Below, piece by piece: positions 20,340-62,499 of a DNA stretch of 64,000 nt. Numbering within the stretch: the first letter of the stretch is position 1; each line of letters starts with the position of its first letter. The translations under genes and the position numbers were made by a program. This DNA comes from Haliotis asinina (Eukaryota > Mollusca > Gastropoda > Lepetellida > Haliotidae), in NCBI RefSeq assembly GCF_037392515.1, contig NC_090290.1, positions 33,253,753 to 33,317,752 of the forward strand, read 5' to 3'. The notes under the pieces were generated by a model. It worked only from the letters and a program-made list of their open reading frames with translations, had not been told where the DNA came from and did not search any database.

Positions 20340-21670
20340 CTGTAGATTTGTCTCCCACCTGTCTCTGTCTCCACTATATCCAAACATCATCACCATCTTT
20401 CTCTGTTTCCAGACATCATTCCTCTTTGTCAGTCTCCCCTGTCTCTGTACATCGTCCCCATCTTTCTGTCTCCATACATTGTTCCCATCTTTCTCTGTAT
20501 CCCGTGTCTCCATACATCATCCCTGTCTCTCTGTCTCCATACATCGTCCCCATCTTTCTGTCTCCCATCTCCGTTCATCATCCCCATCTTTCTGTCTCCC
20601 CTGTCTCCGTTCATCATCCCCATCTTTCTGTCTCCCCTGTCTCCGTTCATCATCCCCATCTTTCTGTCTCCCCTGTCTCCGTACATCATCCCCATCTTTC
20701 TGTCTCCCCGGTCTCCATACTTCATCCCCCATCTTTCTGTCTCCATACATCGTCCCCATCTTTCTGTCTCCCATCTCCATTCATCATCCCCATCTTTCTG
20801 TCTCCCCTGTCTCCGTACATCATCCCCATCTTTCTGTCTCCCCTGTCTCCATACTTCATCCCCCATCTTTCTGTCTCCATACATCGTCCCCATCTTTCTG
20901 TCTCCCATCTCCGTTCATCATCCCCATCTTTCTGTCTCCCCTGTCTCCATACATCATCCCCATCTTTCTGTCTCCATACATCATTCCCATCTTTCTGTCT
21001 CCCCTGTCTCCATTCATCATCCCCATTTTTCTGTGTCTCCCGTCTCCGTTCATCATCCCCCATCTTTCTGTCTCCCCTGTCTCCATACATCATCCCCATC
21101 TTTCTGTTTCCGTACATCATCCCCATCTTTCTGTCTCCCCTGTCTCCGTACATCATCCCCATCTTTCTGTCTCCCCGGTCTCCATACTTCATCCCCCATC
21201 TTTCTGTCTCCATACATCGTCCCCATCTTTCTGTCTCCCATCTCCATTCATCATCCCCATCTTTCTGTCTCCGTACATCATCCCCATCTTTCTGTCTCCC
21301 CTGTCTCCATACTTCATCCCCCATCTTTCTGTCTCCATACATCGTCCCCATCTTTCTGTCTCCCATCTCCGTTCATCATCCCCATCTTTCTGTCTCCCCT
21401 GTCTCCATACATCATCCCCATCTTTCTGTCTCCATACATCATTCCCATCTTTCTGTCTCCCCTGTCTCCATTCATCATCCCCATTTTTCTGTGTCTCCCG
21501 TCTCCGTTCATCATCCCCCATCTTTCTGTCTCCCCTGTCTCCATACATCATCCCCATCTTTCTGTTTCCGTACATCATCCCCATCTTTCTGTTTCCCCTG
21601 CCTCCATACATCATCCCCATCTTTCTGTTTCCCCTGCCTCCATACATTGCCCTCATCTTTCTGTCCCTCT
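20340..21670. repeat. CT-rich minisatellite, about 36-bp units with a 458-bp higher-order duplication
   Basis: The unit is built from CATCATCCCCATCTTTCTGT and CTCCCCTGTCTCCGTA, about 36 bp, with shortened variants of about 21 bp that lack the CTCCCCTGT block. About 45 units and sub-units fill 1.3 kb. A block near 20856-21086 recurs almost base for base at 21314-21544, an offset of 458 bp, so a whole multi-unit block was duplicated on top of the simple array. The plus strand has almost no G and the minus strand almost no C. Because many units are multiples of three, several frames stay open (455 and 416 residues on +, up to 214 on -); none is a real gene. Confidence 0.95.
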
Positions 21671-26296: not shown

Positions 26297-29200
26297 CTGG
26301 TAACAAACGATAATGCTGAACAATTGTGATAGCATGCAAACATAAAAGGTGCAAAGATACTGTTCTCAACACAAATGAAAAATGCAGTTCTAGGAATGTG
26401 TGCAAAGTCGTATCTGATGCAATAAATAACTAAAATCTTCAAGTTTACATTGCTTCAACAACCATGACCCCTAGCACTGGGTAAAGGGAGACAACTATGT
26501 ACTCACTGTAGTTTGAAGATTTTGCAGGTCTGTATTGTGGAATGTTTCCCTGAAAAAAAGTACAATGAAAGTTATACCACCAATAAATATATATCAACAA
26601 TGGATCTGCCATAATACTGAAATCTCTTAACACATAATGGAACAGCTTATGCCAAAAGCCATAGTCCAATAAGTTATTTTCTATACTCACGCATTCTTGT
26701 AGCCACCCTGTACCCTTGAAGCATCAATGGATATCTCCTGCCTCTCCTTGGCTGCCTGGAAACATACAAACAATATAATTAAAAGTAGGAATGACCGATC
26801 ACAATAATATTCCTTCAAAATGCAAGCTATGGCACTGAATGGCATGCAAACTGAATTGTAATCTATGATGCCCTTTTGATTCTTTGTGAAATATGTTTAT
26901 AGATCTGCTTACCTTCAGGAGGCTGTAATTGGATGTGCGGGCCACATAGTCTGAGAAGTCACTCAAAGCCTTCTCCTTTTGGCGGTGATTCTCTCGAATC
27001 TAAACATATCACAGTCATTATTGAACCATTTTTATCAAATCAGAATTATTCATGGAGTGGAAGGTGCATCAGTACAATCATACACTAATGGTTTGCTACT
27101 ATTCCCTCACCTTTTCAACAACATCTGCTGTTATACCCTCACCCCTCTAACAACACCTGCTACTACTCCCTCACCTCTCTAACAACACCTGCTACTATTC
27201 CCTCACCTCTCCTACAACACCTGCTATTATTCTCTCACTTCTCCAACACCACCTGCTATTATTCCCTCACCTCTCCTACAACACCTGCTATTATTCTCTC
27301 ACTTCTCTAACAACACCTGCTACTATTCCCTCACCTCTCCTACAACACCTGCTATTATTCTCTCACTTCTCCAACACCACCTGCTATTATTCTCTCACTT
27401 CTCCAACACCACCTGCTATTATTCTCTCACTTCTCCAACACCACCTGCTATTATTCCCTCACCTCCTCAACACTATCTGATATTCACTCACCTCAGCATA
27501 AAACTCCTGCTCATCCAGCATATCCTGGTTTTTCTGGGCCTCAAGCAGCTCAACCTGGGTGCTAGCCACAATTGCAGCTCGCTCTTCCACAGCTCGAGAT
27601 ATAGCCTCAATGGCCTCCATGTCAGGAGTAACAGGACGCATCCTCTCTGTCTCAAGCTCCGAGATGATCTCAGTCCATACCTCACCCTGCTTGAAGTCGA
27701 GATATTTCTCAATGATAGTGAGAGTCACATGGTCCTCCACACAGAGTCCTGGCAGGTCTGTGAAGCCAATCTTACAGAACACAGAATAGATCTTGGCTCG
27801 CATGTTCTCGTACACATCAACAATAGACTGGCTGGGACACTTGGCTGGTAGGGGAATGACTCCAAGCTCTGCTTGCATTTTTCCCATCAGAGGTCGCTTG
27901 ATATCTGCAGATATGCCACCATGTACTGTCACAGTATAATTGTCAAATATGGCAATGGCAATGGCACTGAGCTATAAACAATTTAGGTATGCTGAATGCC
28001 TTTAAGTTGCAGATAAAGGGTGTAAAACCCATGAGCACAGGTATATCACTATACAATTATGAAAAAAATCCGTGCAAAATCTGGATTTACACATATGTCA
28101 AACTATGGCTGAGAACAAATCTTGCACCTTACACAGTCAGATCACATGAGCCTAATTTGCATTATGTCCTCACATACACTAAAAATAATAGATTCCGTTA
28201 ATGGAAAGGCATCAACCTACAAAGAATGATCACTCAGACCTCAAAGACTATTGGCCAAGCTACAAAATGTGTAGAGCACCTGTGATGGCTCCATGAGTGT
28301 CTCTGCATGCCCCGATTTCCATCTCCTCTACCCTCCATATTTCACACAGGAGGTGAGCTGCTGTGGAATTGTTCTTGCCACGCCAGGTGAGCACATGATT
28401 CACTGTCTTGGGGTTCTCACATAGATCCAGCAGGCAGCCCAGGATCAGGTTGTGCATATTCTTTGGGCAGACCTCAAGAAGGTCCACTAGCAGGAACACA
28501 CCCTCTCTCTCCAGAAAGTAGTCTTCCGTGGAGTAGCAGCCCACTACAGCACACCTGCAACAGAAACACAATTTGACTCTGAGTACTATCTAGTTTGGTC
28601 TTTCCATTGATGAAATAGTAACTGATTTTGGTTTAAGTGGCTTTTACCAATATTACAGTATAATCACCTGAAGGGACACCAAAACTGGGCTTTACATAAT
28701 GTAACCAAGCGGGGAATCAGACCCAGGTGCTTGGTGTGAAGAGGGAACACTTTAACTGCTAGGCTACTCCACCCAACCTGTTGATGTAACAATCCAGTTT
28801 GCTGACTGATTAATCATAAAAACAGGAATATGCCTATGTAAAGTTTTGTTGTCTTTCACTAATTTATACAATCTGAAAAAAGTAGCATTGATTTCCTTTG
28901 TCAAATAAGCATATTCCTAACAGATATACAAAAGGGACCACCAACTCTGTGGATCTCTAAATACTGTATTGTTTAAAAAGGTCAATATCTAATCAGGTTT
29001 GTGAATGTGATTAACAATACATGGTTATAGTGAAAGAGTATAGTATTAACCCCTCTTTTAGCAATATTCCAGCAATATCACAGCAGGGGACACCACATGA
29101 ATCAAAGTAGTAGAGTCCAGTGTCCAATGAGATGGCAACAGGTGAAAGTGATTTCAGCTGAAAATCAGCTGGGAGTCTTGGGGCTGCAGGCCCCCAACAA

Positions 29201-32200
29201 GGTCCAGATCATTGACATAAACTTAAATCTGCGGATTTCAGCAGATTCGTGGAAAATTGCCACCCCTGGTCTATGAGTGTTGGTTGCCATGTAGCGCTGA
29301 CTCACCAGGCGCAGTCTACAGCTGCCAGGAGAAGTCTGTGATGTCCCAGTCCACTGTTGAGCAGCTTGGTATTGGTCTTGAGGTACTCAACAACAATGTC
29401 CACACCTTGGTTGCCAAACAACTCCTGCACACAAACAAAATAACAAAATTAAGGACAAAGGAAATACAGACACGGAATATACCTTCTCCCAGTGATCGTT
29501 ATCTACAGACATGCACACACACAGCTATATCACACAAAACATTGAATACATGAAGTATTAAAATTTTTCCGATGCCAGATGGTAGCTACCATTACAGTCA
29601 TCCCGCGCTTTGCGATACCGCGGATTCGGTTAAACCGCGGGGTAATCCATGGCTCCCATGAAAAGGCTGTGCTGCGATCACACCCCTTCACGAAATCGAA
29701 AATAGCTCATCAACAAATCCGCTCCTGCGCTGTTACGTAAACTAATGAAATTCAGTGCAGATGGCAACTGACAGTGTTTATCGTACATATCCCTTGTGTT
29801 TCACATGCTTAAAACATGCCGGGGTTTCTAAATAATAATCGTACCAACATCGTAGCAGTAACTTATGAAAGACAAGACACGCTATCAGTCGAGTTACGAC
29901 GAGCACTTACAATGTTTGCTGTGATGCAACACACCACGCTTTGGTGCGGTAAGATACAGTCATCCCAGGATGTATGGTGTCAGAAACCACATTTTATTTG
30001 ATTAAATTCAATCCCAATTTTATTTATTAAAACTGTTGACAGAAACAACGGAAACACCGTGAGAACATTACCTCATTCCATACCCATACAACTTCCACTT
30101 ACCCCATTCGTCTAATAACGCGGGGGGGTCATCCGTGGACCCCAAGACCCGCGTTATGGCGAGGGATGACTGTATTAGAAAAAGTCGAGCTTACACATGA
30201 TTGTTGCAAAAGGTTGGGCAAACCCTTAATACTATTTACATGTAGAGCTTTGCAACATATCTGGCTTATAAGAAAGAAATTGCCTTGCTACATACACAGA
30301 CTTGGTTTTGGTCCAACATTTGTTCAGGTGAGTATTTACCTTTCTGTGCATGTCCCCATCACACAATGTAGACAGAATGAACAAAATGTCAGACTGCATC
30401 TCAATACCAATCATATCATCCTGACCCTTTCCTGGGCCAAATGCAGCATTGAGGATACCTGAAGCAATCATACACATAATGGTATTCATCTTAATGTATA
30501 GGTGAGTTCTGGAATCAAGAAAACTTACACAATATGAATCACACTTCTATCTATCACGATATACAATTTAACCAAACCAATTACACATTCACATTCCCAG
30601 GTAAAACGCTGCCTGCCATATATAGTATATACAGTAGGGCTGAATAATCATATTCTTTGATGCTATGAGACATTCAGGATTGGCGACAGACTTGGTCCTT
30701 ATTATTTGAACCATATGCATCAAATGTGGTGATGTGATCATTTAGGGTTATCTCCCTTAGTAGCTGTTTGTGAAAGAGTGGCCATGAGAAGTTACTGTCG
30801 ACAGAGTTGCAGTTCCATTTATGCACCAATATCACTTATTATATACATGTAATGAAAAAAACACATTGTGCAACATTAAGTTAATTATATTTGTTGGACA
30901 GGCATCCATTTGCAAGCTGGCAGCTCTGAATAGGTTCACTCTACACACTGTTTCAGTAAGCCAAATATACCAGCCAGTTTGCTGATATCTGTGAGCAGAT
31001 GTGAACAGTATACTGAGTATCCCTGGTTTACCTATGAGCTGGTTTACTGCCCCCTGGTCAGCCATGTCCTGCAGGACCATCTCATTCTCTGTGGACACTA
31101 CACTCCTCATCAGGCGCAGACATTGGCGCAGCTGAGCCCTCTTGTTGCCGCGACCACCACTGCCGTGGAAACTGTTGCCATGACCAGAAAAGTCCTCTAG
31201 AAGGTAGTAAAGAGTGAGTGAGTGAGTGAGTGAGCGAGCGAAGTTTTATGCCGCTTTTAGTAATATTCCAGCAATATCACGGTGGGGGACACCAGAAAAT
31301 GGGCTTCACACATTGTACCCATGTGGGGAATCGAACCCGGGTCTTCGGCGTGACGAGCAAACGCCTTAACCACTACACTACACCCCCCCGCCCCCCCCCA
31401 AGGAATAGACAGTCTTGGTATGTTACTATGAAACCTTACGATCAAATTCCATTAACTCCACTGTACACATTCTACCTAATGCTACCAATGTTCTCAATTT
31501 GATTTTTGACACTTAAGAACATCCATTGCTTTCTCAATGAACGATTACAAAACATGTCACTAACTTATCAGAGACAATTTCATCTTCCACACAAACCATC
31601 ATCCAAGTGTTTACATTGCCTGAGATGCAACCCACCTCATCTCAGACTAAACACTCCATTCTGAAAACCCATGATGTCCCAAAACATTTTATCTTAAGAA
31701 ATATAATTAAACATGTTTCATGTAGAAGACTCATAGCATATCATGATGCATTTATGTTTTATCATGTGGAATAGTAGAAAGTTTCAGCAGGAAATATTTA
31801 TTTGTTCCGTGCTATGGAAGGTAACCAGAAGTACTGTTTGCCTGAAGTTATTTACCTGGTCCCACACACCATTCTAGTAGCAGGAGGAGTCTGGTACTGC
31901 CTTGACAGGTCATGTAGTCTTCCAGCATCAGCGGACACAGCGTACACAGACAACCCATAGCCAGCAGCTGCAGCTCCTCAAACTGAGCTGGGGTCCACTC
32001 ACGGGGGCCGCTCACCTTGTCATTGGCTCGCACAAAAGAGAACAATGCCAGTAGAAGATGGCCCTCAGATAAGATCTGTCAAACAAGATGCAAATCATTT
32101 ATCAAACATTTTATACCTCAAACCAAAGACTGATGATATTGATAACACACAGATGAAATAAAACATACATATTGTGTTTTTTGTAATTAACACCATCATG

Positions 32201-39400: not shown

Positions 39401-42400
39401 ACCTGAGTGCTTGGCACTCTCATCAAGTAACCTGTACAATAGGAACAGTCGTATAGACTTGCACCAAACAGGTACACATCTTTCAGTCCTTTGGAAATGA
39501 TGGTATAATTGTTAACAGGTAGACAGCATGGAAGAATTGTTATCTATGCCATTATAAATTCATACTGAATTCACAGAAACACAATCATCTACATTAATCC
39601 ACATTCTGGGGAGTGTGAACTGAGTCGTCAAGTGCGAGCTGCTGTCCAGCTGTAATAATTTTCAAACATCTACAAATAAAAATTGTAATTTGACAAGAAT
39701 GGAAGAAAGTTCTCACCAAGCTGAGAGACAGATTCAACCACTATCTGTTCATAGACCAGTTCATCAGATGACTTTTCCTTCAGGTATGGAAGGGAACAGA
39801 TCTTGAGTATGTCAATAATTGGCTGTTCATATAGAGGCTGCTTGTCAACACGATCGGCACACACATTGAGAATCTTGAAAACCTGAACTAGCTCCTTCAT
39901 TAACTGAATGTCATTAAGGATTATAACTGTTTCAGTTTGTGGATGATATTTTCCACATGGAAATGTCCCCTGTCCTCTTTAACAAAAGCTTATGTGTGGA
40001 TCACAATGTATGATGTTATTAGGACCGTGTCATAGAATACAGGAGCTCACAATCTTCATATTGGGGATTTACCACTGATTTCCGTAAATCAGTATGGCAT
40101 ACAACTACATGTTCATCTGGTGTGGTCCCCTGTATCGTCTGCTCGCCAGTCCTGTTGGCTCTGCACATGCCTAATAAGGGAGCATTAATTGAGGACCGAG
40201 TAATCATTGTTTCAATGTGATAATATGATAGATACTATGCCTGATAAACTGTCAACATATATCCAAGAGCTCAAATAGTTAACTTGGCTATTTAAAAGTA
40301 TTACAGTTTACCAAAACATGACTGAGCCGTACAATGGAGGGTGCTCATAATGAAGTGTAAGCAGGACCTGTACAAAGGATACAAAACCTTTCTGGTAGTG
40401 ACGAATCATCTTCTGAAGGGCATGAACATGACGATCATAAAGCATAACCTGAAAGAGTAACAGCAAGGATAGTACAGAAAAATAAAAACACTTATCAATG
40501 TTGAGACATTAGGAAGTGAGATCAGTGATATTGTCAAGTTTCAACCAAAACATCTGAGACTTCTAATCATTTGGATACACAATATCAGTAACTTTTTTCC
40601 GCTTTCTAAAAAGTGTGCTGTGCTGGATATTGGATGAAGTTACACAATATGTCACTTCAGAAAAATATACAGATGACTTTATAGTTGTTGGAGGATTACC
40701 CTTGATGAAGTAAGTTTTGATTTATGCAAGATGCAATGGTGGTAGGGGTCAAACTATTACTAGTTTCAAAATGTTCCAAAACTTACTGCAAAGATGAATA
40801 CTTTAATACTTCTTAAATGCACTCCAATGTAATAAATCACTTTTTTCAGTTAAAATGAATTTTGTTACACAATTTGCATATGAAAATTTTCATGTGCCAC
40901 AAAAATAGAGTCCCAGTATACATCAACCTTGGATGATTTTGAATATTTTGTCAGACAAAAGATCGATCGAGTGATTGAACTATCACTCAGAAATAAATAA
41001 TCAACCTTATAACTTGCAGAATACAAGGCTTATCTATGGTAATCTTTTCAGAACAAATGATGAAAGTTTGAGATCAAGAACCCTTATTATTCACAACTCT
41101 CACGTAACCATCACGCATAGCTCTAGTCTCACAGGAAGCTTTAATTACCCTGTAGTGTGTTCACACCCAATTTAAAGTGGTTCCATGGTGATTGAATCAA
41201 GCTGAAGTGCTTCATTTAGTACCACGGAGGGCACCGTCTCATGTACAAGACATGATAGTCTCATGCACATGCTTCATCTCTGACTGATCATCTTGCCATA
41301 ATACAAATTTGAACAGCCTGCAACTTAAGCCAATAGCCTTGGGCCTCCTTTCACAAAGCACTAAGGTGATCGTAAGTCACTAATGTAACCTTAGTACAAT
41401 GTTAAAGAATGGGAAATAAGATAAACTTTAATAGAGGTTGCTTCATGAAAGGAGCCCCTGGGCCTAGATTTTCAAACCTCTCTTAATGCTTAGAAAGGTG
41501 TAAGTTAATGTTTCATACTTAAGACTATTTTAGCACTAGAGAGCTTTGAAAATCCAGACCCAGAACTTGAGTCCAGTAAACTTTGTTTTGATGTATTCGG
41601 CTCAGCTCATACTTACCATTATGTGAACAGCAAAATAAACTGATAAGAACTCAGAAATGAAAAGTTCATGCTACTAAACTAAAAATTTAAAAGGTTGGGT
41701 AAGCACAGATTGCTAGAACATCACTACTAATAACACTTAAACTTCTCATACAGCATAAGCAAGTTACAGTTTACTCCATCTTGAACTGTTTCAGGTATAG
41801 CGCCATTATACTAAGCAGAAGGAAGACCAAAGGACTCACTTGTATAGAAAAACTTCATATATTACAGTTAATGTTTAGTGTATTGGTCAACAGCTACTAC
41901 TGATGTTCTGATGTCAGACATCATTACTACTAACTGTCATCCCAATAATGACTGTCAAGAAATACATAGATGCACTTACCGAGTGTGGATCTGTTAGCAG
42001 CTTGATGACTCTGTTAAGGTTGACAGGCTGCAGTTTAGAACCCTGGAATTATGCATGCATATTACTTAAAATATCAAAAAGACCAACTTGAATTCTAATG
42101 CAATTATAAGCTGGTCCAATTTCCTACCTCCATTAACTGAAACATTAAGCTCATATTCTTGCACACTTTTCAATAAACCTTTTCATAAGCCACCTGGTTC
42201 TACATTATGCTTGACAAAATGAACCCTTGATAGTACATGTGTCGAAATATGTACTTCTGTAGACTGATAATTTAGAAGCGCAATGATCTTCATCATCCTA
42301 ACACTTGCCCAGCTCTGTATTGACATTGCTTTAATGAATATCTGATACTCATGAAAACTCATGTTTTTCATGTACTCCTTAATTGCAAAAAAAAATAAGG

Positions 42401-47424: not shown

Positions 47425-48250
47425 TCAATAGCCTGTTAAATGGGATACTGCATCCCAATATGCATATACATCCATATGGCCAGCCAAGAATTGCTGTTTG
47501 ATGTTACATAATCTGTTTGTTAACTTGACATATTTAACTTTCTTGCGAGGAGGTTTGGCACCTCCTCTTAATTGCATACATGATGCCTCTACGTAAGATT
47601 GTTCTTTTTTCAAGAATTCAATAATCTTGAAGATATTGGGATGGTTTTCGAAACAGGAAAGCTTCCTGTGCCAGCCCTCAACATGATTAGTAGTGCGGGG
47701 GCCTTCGGTGGCGAAGTGGTTCCACATGGTCCTGCCATGGTCACCCTCCACCCAGTACGATGTCATATAGTCTGTAAACTGTTCCACCCCAGGAAGTGCA
47801 TCTTCCAGGGCCAAGCCACCACACATCACTCACACAGTCCACTGGTACTAGGGGCAAAGCAATCGCTCGTCTTACAAGACGACCTATGTCCGGGTTGTCC
47901 GGCTTCTGAACTCTTCTCCAAACACTCTGGCTAAAGTGAAAGTAGCAACCCTTTAATATAGCATTTTGAAAAGTCATCTTGATGGCGTTTTGAGCAGCTG
48001 ACTCAAAATCAGTGAACACACTCACTGGATCCAATACAATGTTCTTAGAGGCCGCTACATTCTTCACATTTTCAAAGAAACGTTCATATGTCGACTGCGT
48101 TTTATCTGGGAGCAGACCATACACCAAAGGGCACATCTTATTTTGCACAAATGCATGAATGGTGTAAAGCTGGGTGAACACACCAGGGCACTTGTCAAAT
48201 GTTCCGTCACAGTAGTACACATCTGCTTCGGAGAGAAGTCGCACAAATAC
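47425..48250 (-). pseudogene. MULE (Mutator-like) transposase, broken
   Basis: The minus strand encodes a MULE-type DDE domain: YYCDGTFDKCP (first D), PLVYGLLPDKTQSTYERFF, then VFTDFESAAQNAI (second D), GCYFHFSQSVWRRVQ, and NHVEGWHRKLSC (catalytic E). A frameshift near 47830 splits the last part from the first. The frame begins abruptly at about 48245, where sequence of a Harbinger transposase on the opposite strand begins, so the N-terminal zinc-finger part is missing. No TIRs were identified. It is a dead copy, in a family known to be abundant in molluscs and other invertebrates. Confidence 0.85.
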
Positions 48251-48970
48251 GTAAAGTTTCCAAAAGGAAATGACGTCAAAGAAGTTATTCAAGGATATCA
48301 AGACGTCTTGGGCTTTCGAAACTGCGGTGGTGCCATTGACGGTTGTCATATTCCAATTATTGCACCAGAGGAAGCACACGGCGATTACTTGAATGGAAAA
48401 TAATTCTACACGTTAATTTTACAAGCTGTATGTGATCACAGATATATGTTTCGAGACATTAACATTGGCTGGCCAGGCAGAGTGCATGACGCACGCGTGT
48501 TTGGAAACTGAAATATATCACAAAGGTGAACATAAGCAACTCTTTCCCAAATGGAATGAGGGAATTGTGCTACCAACTAAAGAAGCAGCAATGCCAGTTA
48601 TGCTAGTGGCTGACCCTGCATATCCACTGAACAGTTGGTTAATGAAACCAACCATGGTCAGTTGACTCCTCAATAGCAAACATTCGCGTGCAAGGATGAC
48701 CATTGAGAACTCATTAAGGGACGATGGAGATGTATGCAAACACGCCTAGATGTGAAGGTCGACTTTGCATGCACCATGGTTGCAGCCTGTGTTGTTTTGC
48801 ACAACATATGTGAAATGCAGAATGAAGACCATGATCAGGAATGGAATGAAGACAGAGATGATGCTGATACGGATAGAAATGACGGTGATGGACATGATGA
48901 AGCAACTATGATGTGCGCAAGAACAATTCGAGAAGACATTGCCACTGCCCTGTTCTGCAACCTCATCTGA
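48234..48970 (+). pseudogene. PIF/Harbinger (HARBI1-like) transposase, 5' truncated, broken
   Basis: Plus-strand pieces give the DDE nuclease of Harbinger elements: GAIDGCHIPIIAP (first D), INIGWPGRVHDARVFGN (second D), MLVADPAYPLNSWLM, RARMTIENSLRDDG (E), then VAACVVLHNICE and an acidic tail. In-frame stops or shifts occur after HGDYLNGK, after VFGN, after KPTMVS and near 48740. The N-terminal part is lost at the junction with the MULE fragment. With the Myb-like frame at 49526-50246 it forms the usual two-gene Harbinger set, here convergent. Confidence 0.88.
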
Positions 48971-61213: not shown

Positions 61214-62131
61214 TCAACAGCCTGGCACACCACATATTCCCCGGACGTCTGCTGTGTAGGTTTTTGGTCTGGCGTCCAGCGGTGTTGGTTCCGGAGGAGA
61301 TTCTCTTCCAAATGAGTCTTGCTCTGATGTGTCCTCAGGTCCTGCCCCTGTGCCGTCACCACCAGAAGCATTACCATCTGTCTCAACAGACACACAATCG
61401 TCACCACCAGAAGCATTACCATCTGTGTCAACAGACACATGGTCGTCACCACCAGAAGCATTACCATCTGTGTCAACAGACACATGGTCGTCACCACCAG
61501 AAGCATTACCATCTGTCTCAACAGACACACAATCGTCACCACCAGAGGCATTACCATCTGTGTCAACAGACACATGGTCGTCACCACCAGAAGCATTACC
61601 ATCTGTCTCAACAGACACATGGTCGTCACCACCAGAAGCATTACCATCTGTCTCAACAGACACATGGTCGTCACCACCAGAAGCATTACCATCTGTCTCA
61701 ACAGACACACAGTCGTCACCACCAGAAGCATTACCATCTGTCTCAACAGACACACAATCGTCACCACCAGAAGCATTACCATCTGTGTCAACAGACACAT
61801 GGTCGTCACCACCAGAAGCATTACCATCTGTCTCAACAGACACATGGTCGTCACCACCAGAAGCATTACCATCTGTCTCAACAGACACACAGTCGTCACC
61901 ACCAGAAGCATTACCATCTGTCTCAACAGACACATGGTCGTCACCACTTGTCTGTGAGATAGATGTATCCTTATCCACAGTTTCGTCACTGATGAAAGTG
62001 TCTTCATCAGGAACTGCTGGAATTATATCCAGAGCTTCCTCCTCTGACTCATTATCTGGGTGTCTTCTGATTCCAATGAGTTTGATGAATTGGTGACTGG
62101 CTTTGCAGGTTACAACAGTTTCTCTTTTCAT
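61214..62131 (-). CDS. Uncharacterised open frame with thirteen 15-residue acidic repeats (possible exon)
   Basis: 305 codons on the minus strand, from an ATG at 62131. The non-repeat N-terminus (KRETVVTCKASHQFIKLIGI then RRHPDNESEEEALDII) is varied and protein-like. Then follow 13 perfect-length repeats GDDHVSVETDGNASG, with H/C and E/D variants, and a P/E/D-rich C-terminus to a TAG or TGA near 61214. The repeats are acidic and would be disordered. The frame stays open upstream of the ATG for about 12 codons. Other frames of the array are also open because 45 is divisible by three, but only this one is open through both unique flanks. No splice sites or homologues were recognised; it could be an exon, a young gene or chance. 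Confidence 0.35.
   Translation of the reverse strand: MKRETVVTCKASHQFIKLIGIRRHPDNESEEEALDIIPAVPDEDTFISDETVDKDTSISQTSGDDHVSVETDGNASGGDDCVSVETDGNASGGDDHVSVETDGNASGGDDHVSVDTDGNASGGDDCVSVETDGNASGGDDCVSVETDGNASGGDDHVSVETDGNASGGDDHVSVETDGNASGGDDHVSVDTDGNASGGDDCVSVETDGNASGGDDHVSVDTDGNASGGDDHVSVDTDGNASGGDDCVSVETDGNASGGDGTGAGPEDTSEQDSFGRESPPEPTPLDARPKTYTADVRGICGVPGC
61356..61940. repeat. Tandem array, 13 units of exactly 45 bp
   Basis: Unit TCACCACCAGAAGCATTACC followed by ATCTGT[C/G]TCAACAGACACA[TG/CA][G/A/]TCG. 13 x 45 = 585 bp with no indel. Variants at three sites (GTCTC/GTGTC, ACATGG/ACACAA/ACACAG, one GAGGC) recur in blocks, so units were copied in groups. Confidence 0.97.
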
Positions 62132-62499
62132 TTCAGGACGGGTTGGTGGGGTAGCCTGGTGCTGAGTGTTTACTCATTACACCGAAAACCTGAGTCCCAT
62201 CCCCCAGGTGGATACAGTGTGTGAGGTCCGTTTCTGGAGTTATTTTAGCTCGTTGAGAAAAAACCCTTGGCAACACCAATGTCATCATTTTGGTGTATTA
62301 ATCGGTGAGCATGGGGAATCTGATCATAGCAATGTATACTGGTCATTTTATTTCAGTCGCTTGTTTGCAAAGGTTACCTCTGAAGTTAAACTTTCCTGTT
62401 TACAAAAAGTGTGATTCCATGTATCAAAACACTCGTCATTTACATGGTGATCATTGACATGGTGATCAGGTGAGCAAGCCCTACCCTATTGTCTTACAA

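Follow-up and report, generated by a model that had tools for sequence, protein, structure and literature searches.

The exon 16 border of CFAP69 in Haliotis asinina opens a minisatellite of donor-like units that probably arose from it in place

The window analysed here is a stretch of 64,000 nucleotides of Haliotis asinina (C11:33253753-33317752) from a host genome of 1.14 Gb. It carries the gene CFAP69, which encodes a cilia protein, on its minus strand. Exons 16-18 align with PDB entry 9ijj (E 8.1e-48), without any gap across the junction of exons 16 and 17. Exon 16 alone aligns with the same entry with E 2.4e-35 and contains a match to Pfam PF21049 (CFA69_ARM_rpt, E 1.4e-38). The closest named protein to an approximate gene model of 753 amino acids is the CFAP69-like protein of Haliotis rufescens, with 86% identity. 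A tblastn search with that protein gave 19 ordered coding matches, and the name exon 16 follows this order, the 16th match being found at 27923-27483. Exon bounds were set by joint scoring of donors and acceptors, and the features around the exon 16 donor are collected in Table 1. Upstream of CFAP69 there is also a MULE transposase domain (PF10551, E 1.4e-12) at 47741-48412 on the minus strand.

Table 1. Features at the border of exon 16 and intron 16 of CFAP69 (window positions)
Feature	Position	Strand	Evidence
CFAP69 coding exon 16, 413 nt	27492..27904	-	Pfam, PDB 9ijj, tblastn, donor/acceptor scoring
Exon tail, 20 nt, encoding ...EQEFYAE and similar to the exon-like stretch of the unit	27492..27511	-	Resemblance statistically only suggestive
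Intron 16, 492 nt, 398 nt of which are array	27000..27491	-	Donor/acceptor scoring
Authentic donor GTGAGT and 29-nt border copy of the repeat	27463..27491	-	Motif positions, border comparison
Minisatellite with eleven complete units of 32 bp plus an incomplete final one, all starting with GTGAG; 12 decoy donors	27094..27462	-	Tandem Repeats Finder, motifs
CFAP69 coding exon 17, in frame with exon 16 via the first donor	26913..26999	-	PDB 9ijj alignment, donor/acceptor scoring

The donor of exon 16 is GAG/GTGAGT, with the final exon base at 27492 and the G of the GT at 27491, and from here on most of the intron is repetitive. Tandem Repeats Finder reports an array at 27094-27472 with a period of 32, 11.8 copies and 87% matches. 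The motif GTGAG is found 13 times on the minus strand, at 27491 (the real donor), 27462 and 27430 and then in 32-nt steps down to 27110, the first downstream motif lying 29 nt past the true donor. The first repeat is accordingly 29 nt long and is followed by eleven full 32-mers, while the last repeat stops after about 17 nt. Including the first 29 nt, the array makes up 81% of the intron bases. An earlier note on this DNA had described about twelve 32-bp units right after the donor, every one with GTGAG and about half with AG/GTGAG. This agrees with the downstream sites counted here, which keep GTGAG in 12 of 12 cases and show it as AG/GTGAG in six, AA/GTGAG in five and GG/GTGAG in one. The array is also where the note had placed it, except that its lower end is not at 27106 but about 12 nt farther, at 27094.

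Copies at the edges of the array diverge most, and a few variants alternate among those farther in, as is usual for an internally homogenised minisatellite. Divergence is greatest in the border copy, with 18 of 32 ungapped identities compared with 26-31 for the other copies. The array strand folds better than its shuffled versions (z -6.77, 0 of 100 shuffles as good), but this score was given no weight because shuffling destroys the repeat and because weak pairing, when multiplied, inflates the score. A second donor-like series is found in ten units at 27156-27444 on the minus strand, with CAG/GTGGTG in four units and CAG/GTGTTG in six and U1 energies of -6.7 to -9.1. The border copy does not have this series, which plays no part in the argument on origin.

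Pairing with U1 was calculated for a human-type U1 5' end and not for the host's own, and the resulting energies are a crude measure of splice site strength. Eighteen CFAP69 donors were found, and 17 including that of exon 16 were scored after one at 40382 (TTT/GTATCC, U1 -1.3) was left out as a doubtful exon end; the acceptor partner of the donor at 26690 is uncertain. The donor of exon 15, which precedes exon 16, is weak (CAG/GTGCTC at 28279, minus strand, U1 -6.8). The donor of exon 16 ties for the strongest of the 17 and has the best energy of the 13 sites in and before the array (-11.6 kcal/mol). It is followed by six AG/GTGAGG decoys with -10.1 to -10.2 kcal/mol, one GG/GTGAGG decoy with -9.8 and five AA/GTGAGA decoys with -4.6. 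Among the 16 other CFAP69 donors, pairing is weaker than -10.2 in 12 and weaker than -9.8 in 11, and one has the same -11.6 as exon 16. Seven of the 12 decoys thus pair better than most other donors scored and are strong by this crude measure. None of the 12 equals the true donor. A T at +6 is found in the true donor only, and the complete 9-mer GAGGTGAGT is matched by 0 of 12 decoys even though they all have GTGAG.

Use of the decoys had been expected to lengthen the exon in 32-nt steps, two of three shifting the frame. The reading frame does not bear this out. Decoy 1 lengthens the exon by 29 nt, a frameshift that leads to a stop at +63, and decoys 2-12 all have a TGA in frame at +30, regardless of how many units they add. 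For these reasons no decoy is predicted to give a full-length protein. Any use of a decoy would yield a truncated protein, and decay of the message is likely because exons 17-19 follow.

It could be argued that selection keeps the extra U1 sites, either to reinforce the definition of exon 16 or to divert part of the transcripts to the stop at +30, given that seven decoys are strong and that a premature stop follows from every one of them. However, few donors in the gene are as strong as the true one even without the array, and GTGAG is not more conserved than other parts of the unit. In the 11 units 19 of 32 columns are invariant, so that a constant GTGAG does not speak for selection, and selection on the motif within the array was rejected. 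We regard a functional array as very improbable. The same low probability is given to a length-dependent splicing rheostat, in which changes in the copy number of the border-derived decoys would set how many of the CFAP69 transcripts terminate at the poison stop at +30.

The repeat unit was compared with the border from about -21 to -4 in the exon and from +7 to about +29 in the intron. Positions -3 to +6 were omitted because any donor resembles a donor. The motif alone means little in a unit of this size, as GTGAG is present in 2,321 of 63,968 32-mers of the same strand. With the motif omitted the border scores 13 and ranks first of 118 GTGAG sites in the window (runner-up 4), first of 7,905 GT sites (runner-up 10) and first of the 17 CFAP69 donors, the other 16 of which score from -15 to -2. 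An unrelated minisatellite with GTGAG in its unit that merely expanded beside the donor, as the commonness of the motif and several further minisatellites in the window might suggest, is hardly credible when the flanks without the motif rank in this way and the phase of the array runs on from the donor apart from three missing bases.

The two halves of the border differ in strength. The score of the intron half is reached by 3 of 7,905 GT sites, the border among them, and is equalled at 89 of 127,100 window positions and in 118 of 20,000 shuffles. The score of the exon half is reached by 38 of 7,905 GT sites, again with the border among them, at 521 of 127,112 window positions and in 359 of 20,000 shuffles, a number that rises to 892 of 20,000 if any variant of the unit is allowed. 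The proposal that the array arose by duplication of the exon-intron border, with a likeness better than that of shuffled sequence, thus stands firmly on the intron side but is weak to suggestive on the exon side. Judged from these comparisons, a derivation of the unit from the intron side is well supported, and a derivation from the exon side as well is likely but statistically only suggestive.

This imbalance is what would be seen if the array had grown from the first 29-32 nt or so of the intron, with no exon copied, a chance likeness to the exon tail and a working donor that is simply the edge of the array. The number of GT sites that reach the exon-half score fits such an origin, and so does the exon end at 31855, which outscores the end of exon 16 in the exon half (6 versus 5). 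An intron-only origin is less easily reconciled with the position of the best two of 397 17-mers of exon 16, which both sit at the exon end, or with the fit of 20 exon and 12 intron bases to a period of 32 nt, where 33-34 columns show 22-26 identities when the donor motif is counted. We consider an origin from the intron only to be unlikely, though it is the most serious of the alternatives.

The exon tail encodes DEQEFYAE, which is kept in most molluscan rows of the protein comparison and is recognisable in vertebrates. Among the 120 homologues listed, of 792, the Y is found in 113 and the final E in 94. Predicted proteins of other species have no insertion or gap near the junction of exons 16 and 17 in the 117 of 120 listed rows that span it; the others are P0070 (no residues there), P0031 (without the exon-17 side) and P0068 (without the exon-16 side). 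Because the encoded peptide is so widely conserved, the exon tail is probably older than the array. A query of 431 bp with the border and the array had a single match in the 1.14-Gb genome, which was itself, in a search that skips simple and very common words. A dispersed satellite or a transposon-borne repeat was rejected on this account. The 13-mer AGGTGAGGGAATA is found at 23 places in the genome, five of them within the array, and no array was seen at the 8 inspected of the 18 places outside it. Amplification of the border in place is the simplest reading, because the exon tail is conserved, the query has a single genome match and the inspected AGGTGAGGGAATA places have no array.

The border of exon 16 and intron 16 was thus probably duplicated in tandem. 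The duplicated segment would have comprised some 20 nt of the exon and 12 nt of the intron, or the intron part at the very least, and would then have expanded where it stood into a minisatellite with about 12 copies. The first of these would have stayed the working 5' splice site, with a conserved exon tail under constraint and a better match to U1 through the T at +6. The downstream copies would be donor look-alikes and probably silent in normal splicing, with the exon-proximal and strongest U1 site being chosen and any use of the others leading to a premature stop. The present understanding of CFAP69 is not changed by the array. The locus does offer a natural test, in a mollusc, of how the spliceosome chooses among similar 5' splice sites, with 13 donor-like sites of graded strength in some 380 nt.

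The source paper for the repeats in intron 7 of the human gene for coagulation factor VII (F7) is Borensztajn 2006. According to a review, several repeats of 37 bp follow one another in this intron and the first of them holds the donor that is used, so that the tandem array begins at the authentic 5' splice site, an arrangement connected with "oriented scanning" (PMC6627357). The array in CFAP69 likewise starts at the exon-intron border and its first unit holds the authentic donor. The earlier note had known of no described case exactly like this one, and that statement must be revised because F7 intron 7 shows the same arrangement in another gene and is a close precedent. The two differ in gene and phylum and in the unit, which is 37 bp in F7 and 32 bp in CFAP69. 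Furthermore, no decoy in CFAP69 equals the true 9-mer, and the choice of donor in CFAP69 is predicted from sequence. The F7 repeats are not mentioned in the portions consulted of PMC3778950 or PMC9311317.

Two other systems are similar in part. The dual-specific splice-site array of UBC also confronts splicing with a choice among tandem sites of the AGGT type, but its units, as described in PMC10809524, are coding, have a length that is a multiple of 3 and carry sites that double as 5' and 3' sites. The CFAP69 units are instead intronic, 32 nt long and provided with an in-frame TGA at +30, and do not belong to the UBC type. Intron gain by tandem duplication likewise involves duplicated splice-site sequence, according to PMC4974935, whereas in CFAP69 the copies share a single intron and there is no sign of a new one. 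No other such case outside vertebrates was found in the open-access literature, which is weak evidence of absence, and no paper found there treats Haliotis and CFAP69 together. The array in CFAP69 is a real and tidy structure and most likely a further example of the F7 type of arrangement. It points to exon-intron borders as possible seeds of minisatellites, in which case the arrangement in F7 need not be a human oddity.

Two of the further minisatellites in the window have open reading frames. A 45-bp minisatellite with 13.2 copies at 61354-61947 (ORF 61214-62173, minus strand) is in frame and would encode a repeat of 15 amino acids similar to SVETDGNASGGDDHV. The 1.1-kb CTGTCTCCATACATCATCCCCATC-type minisatellite at 20523-21665 has no stop in any of the three plus-strand frames over 453-479 codons, which is probably a by-product of its composition.
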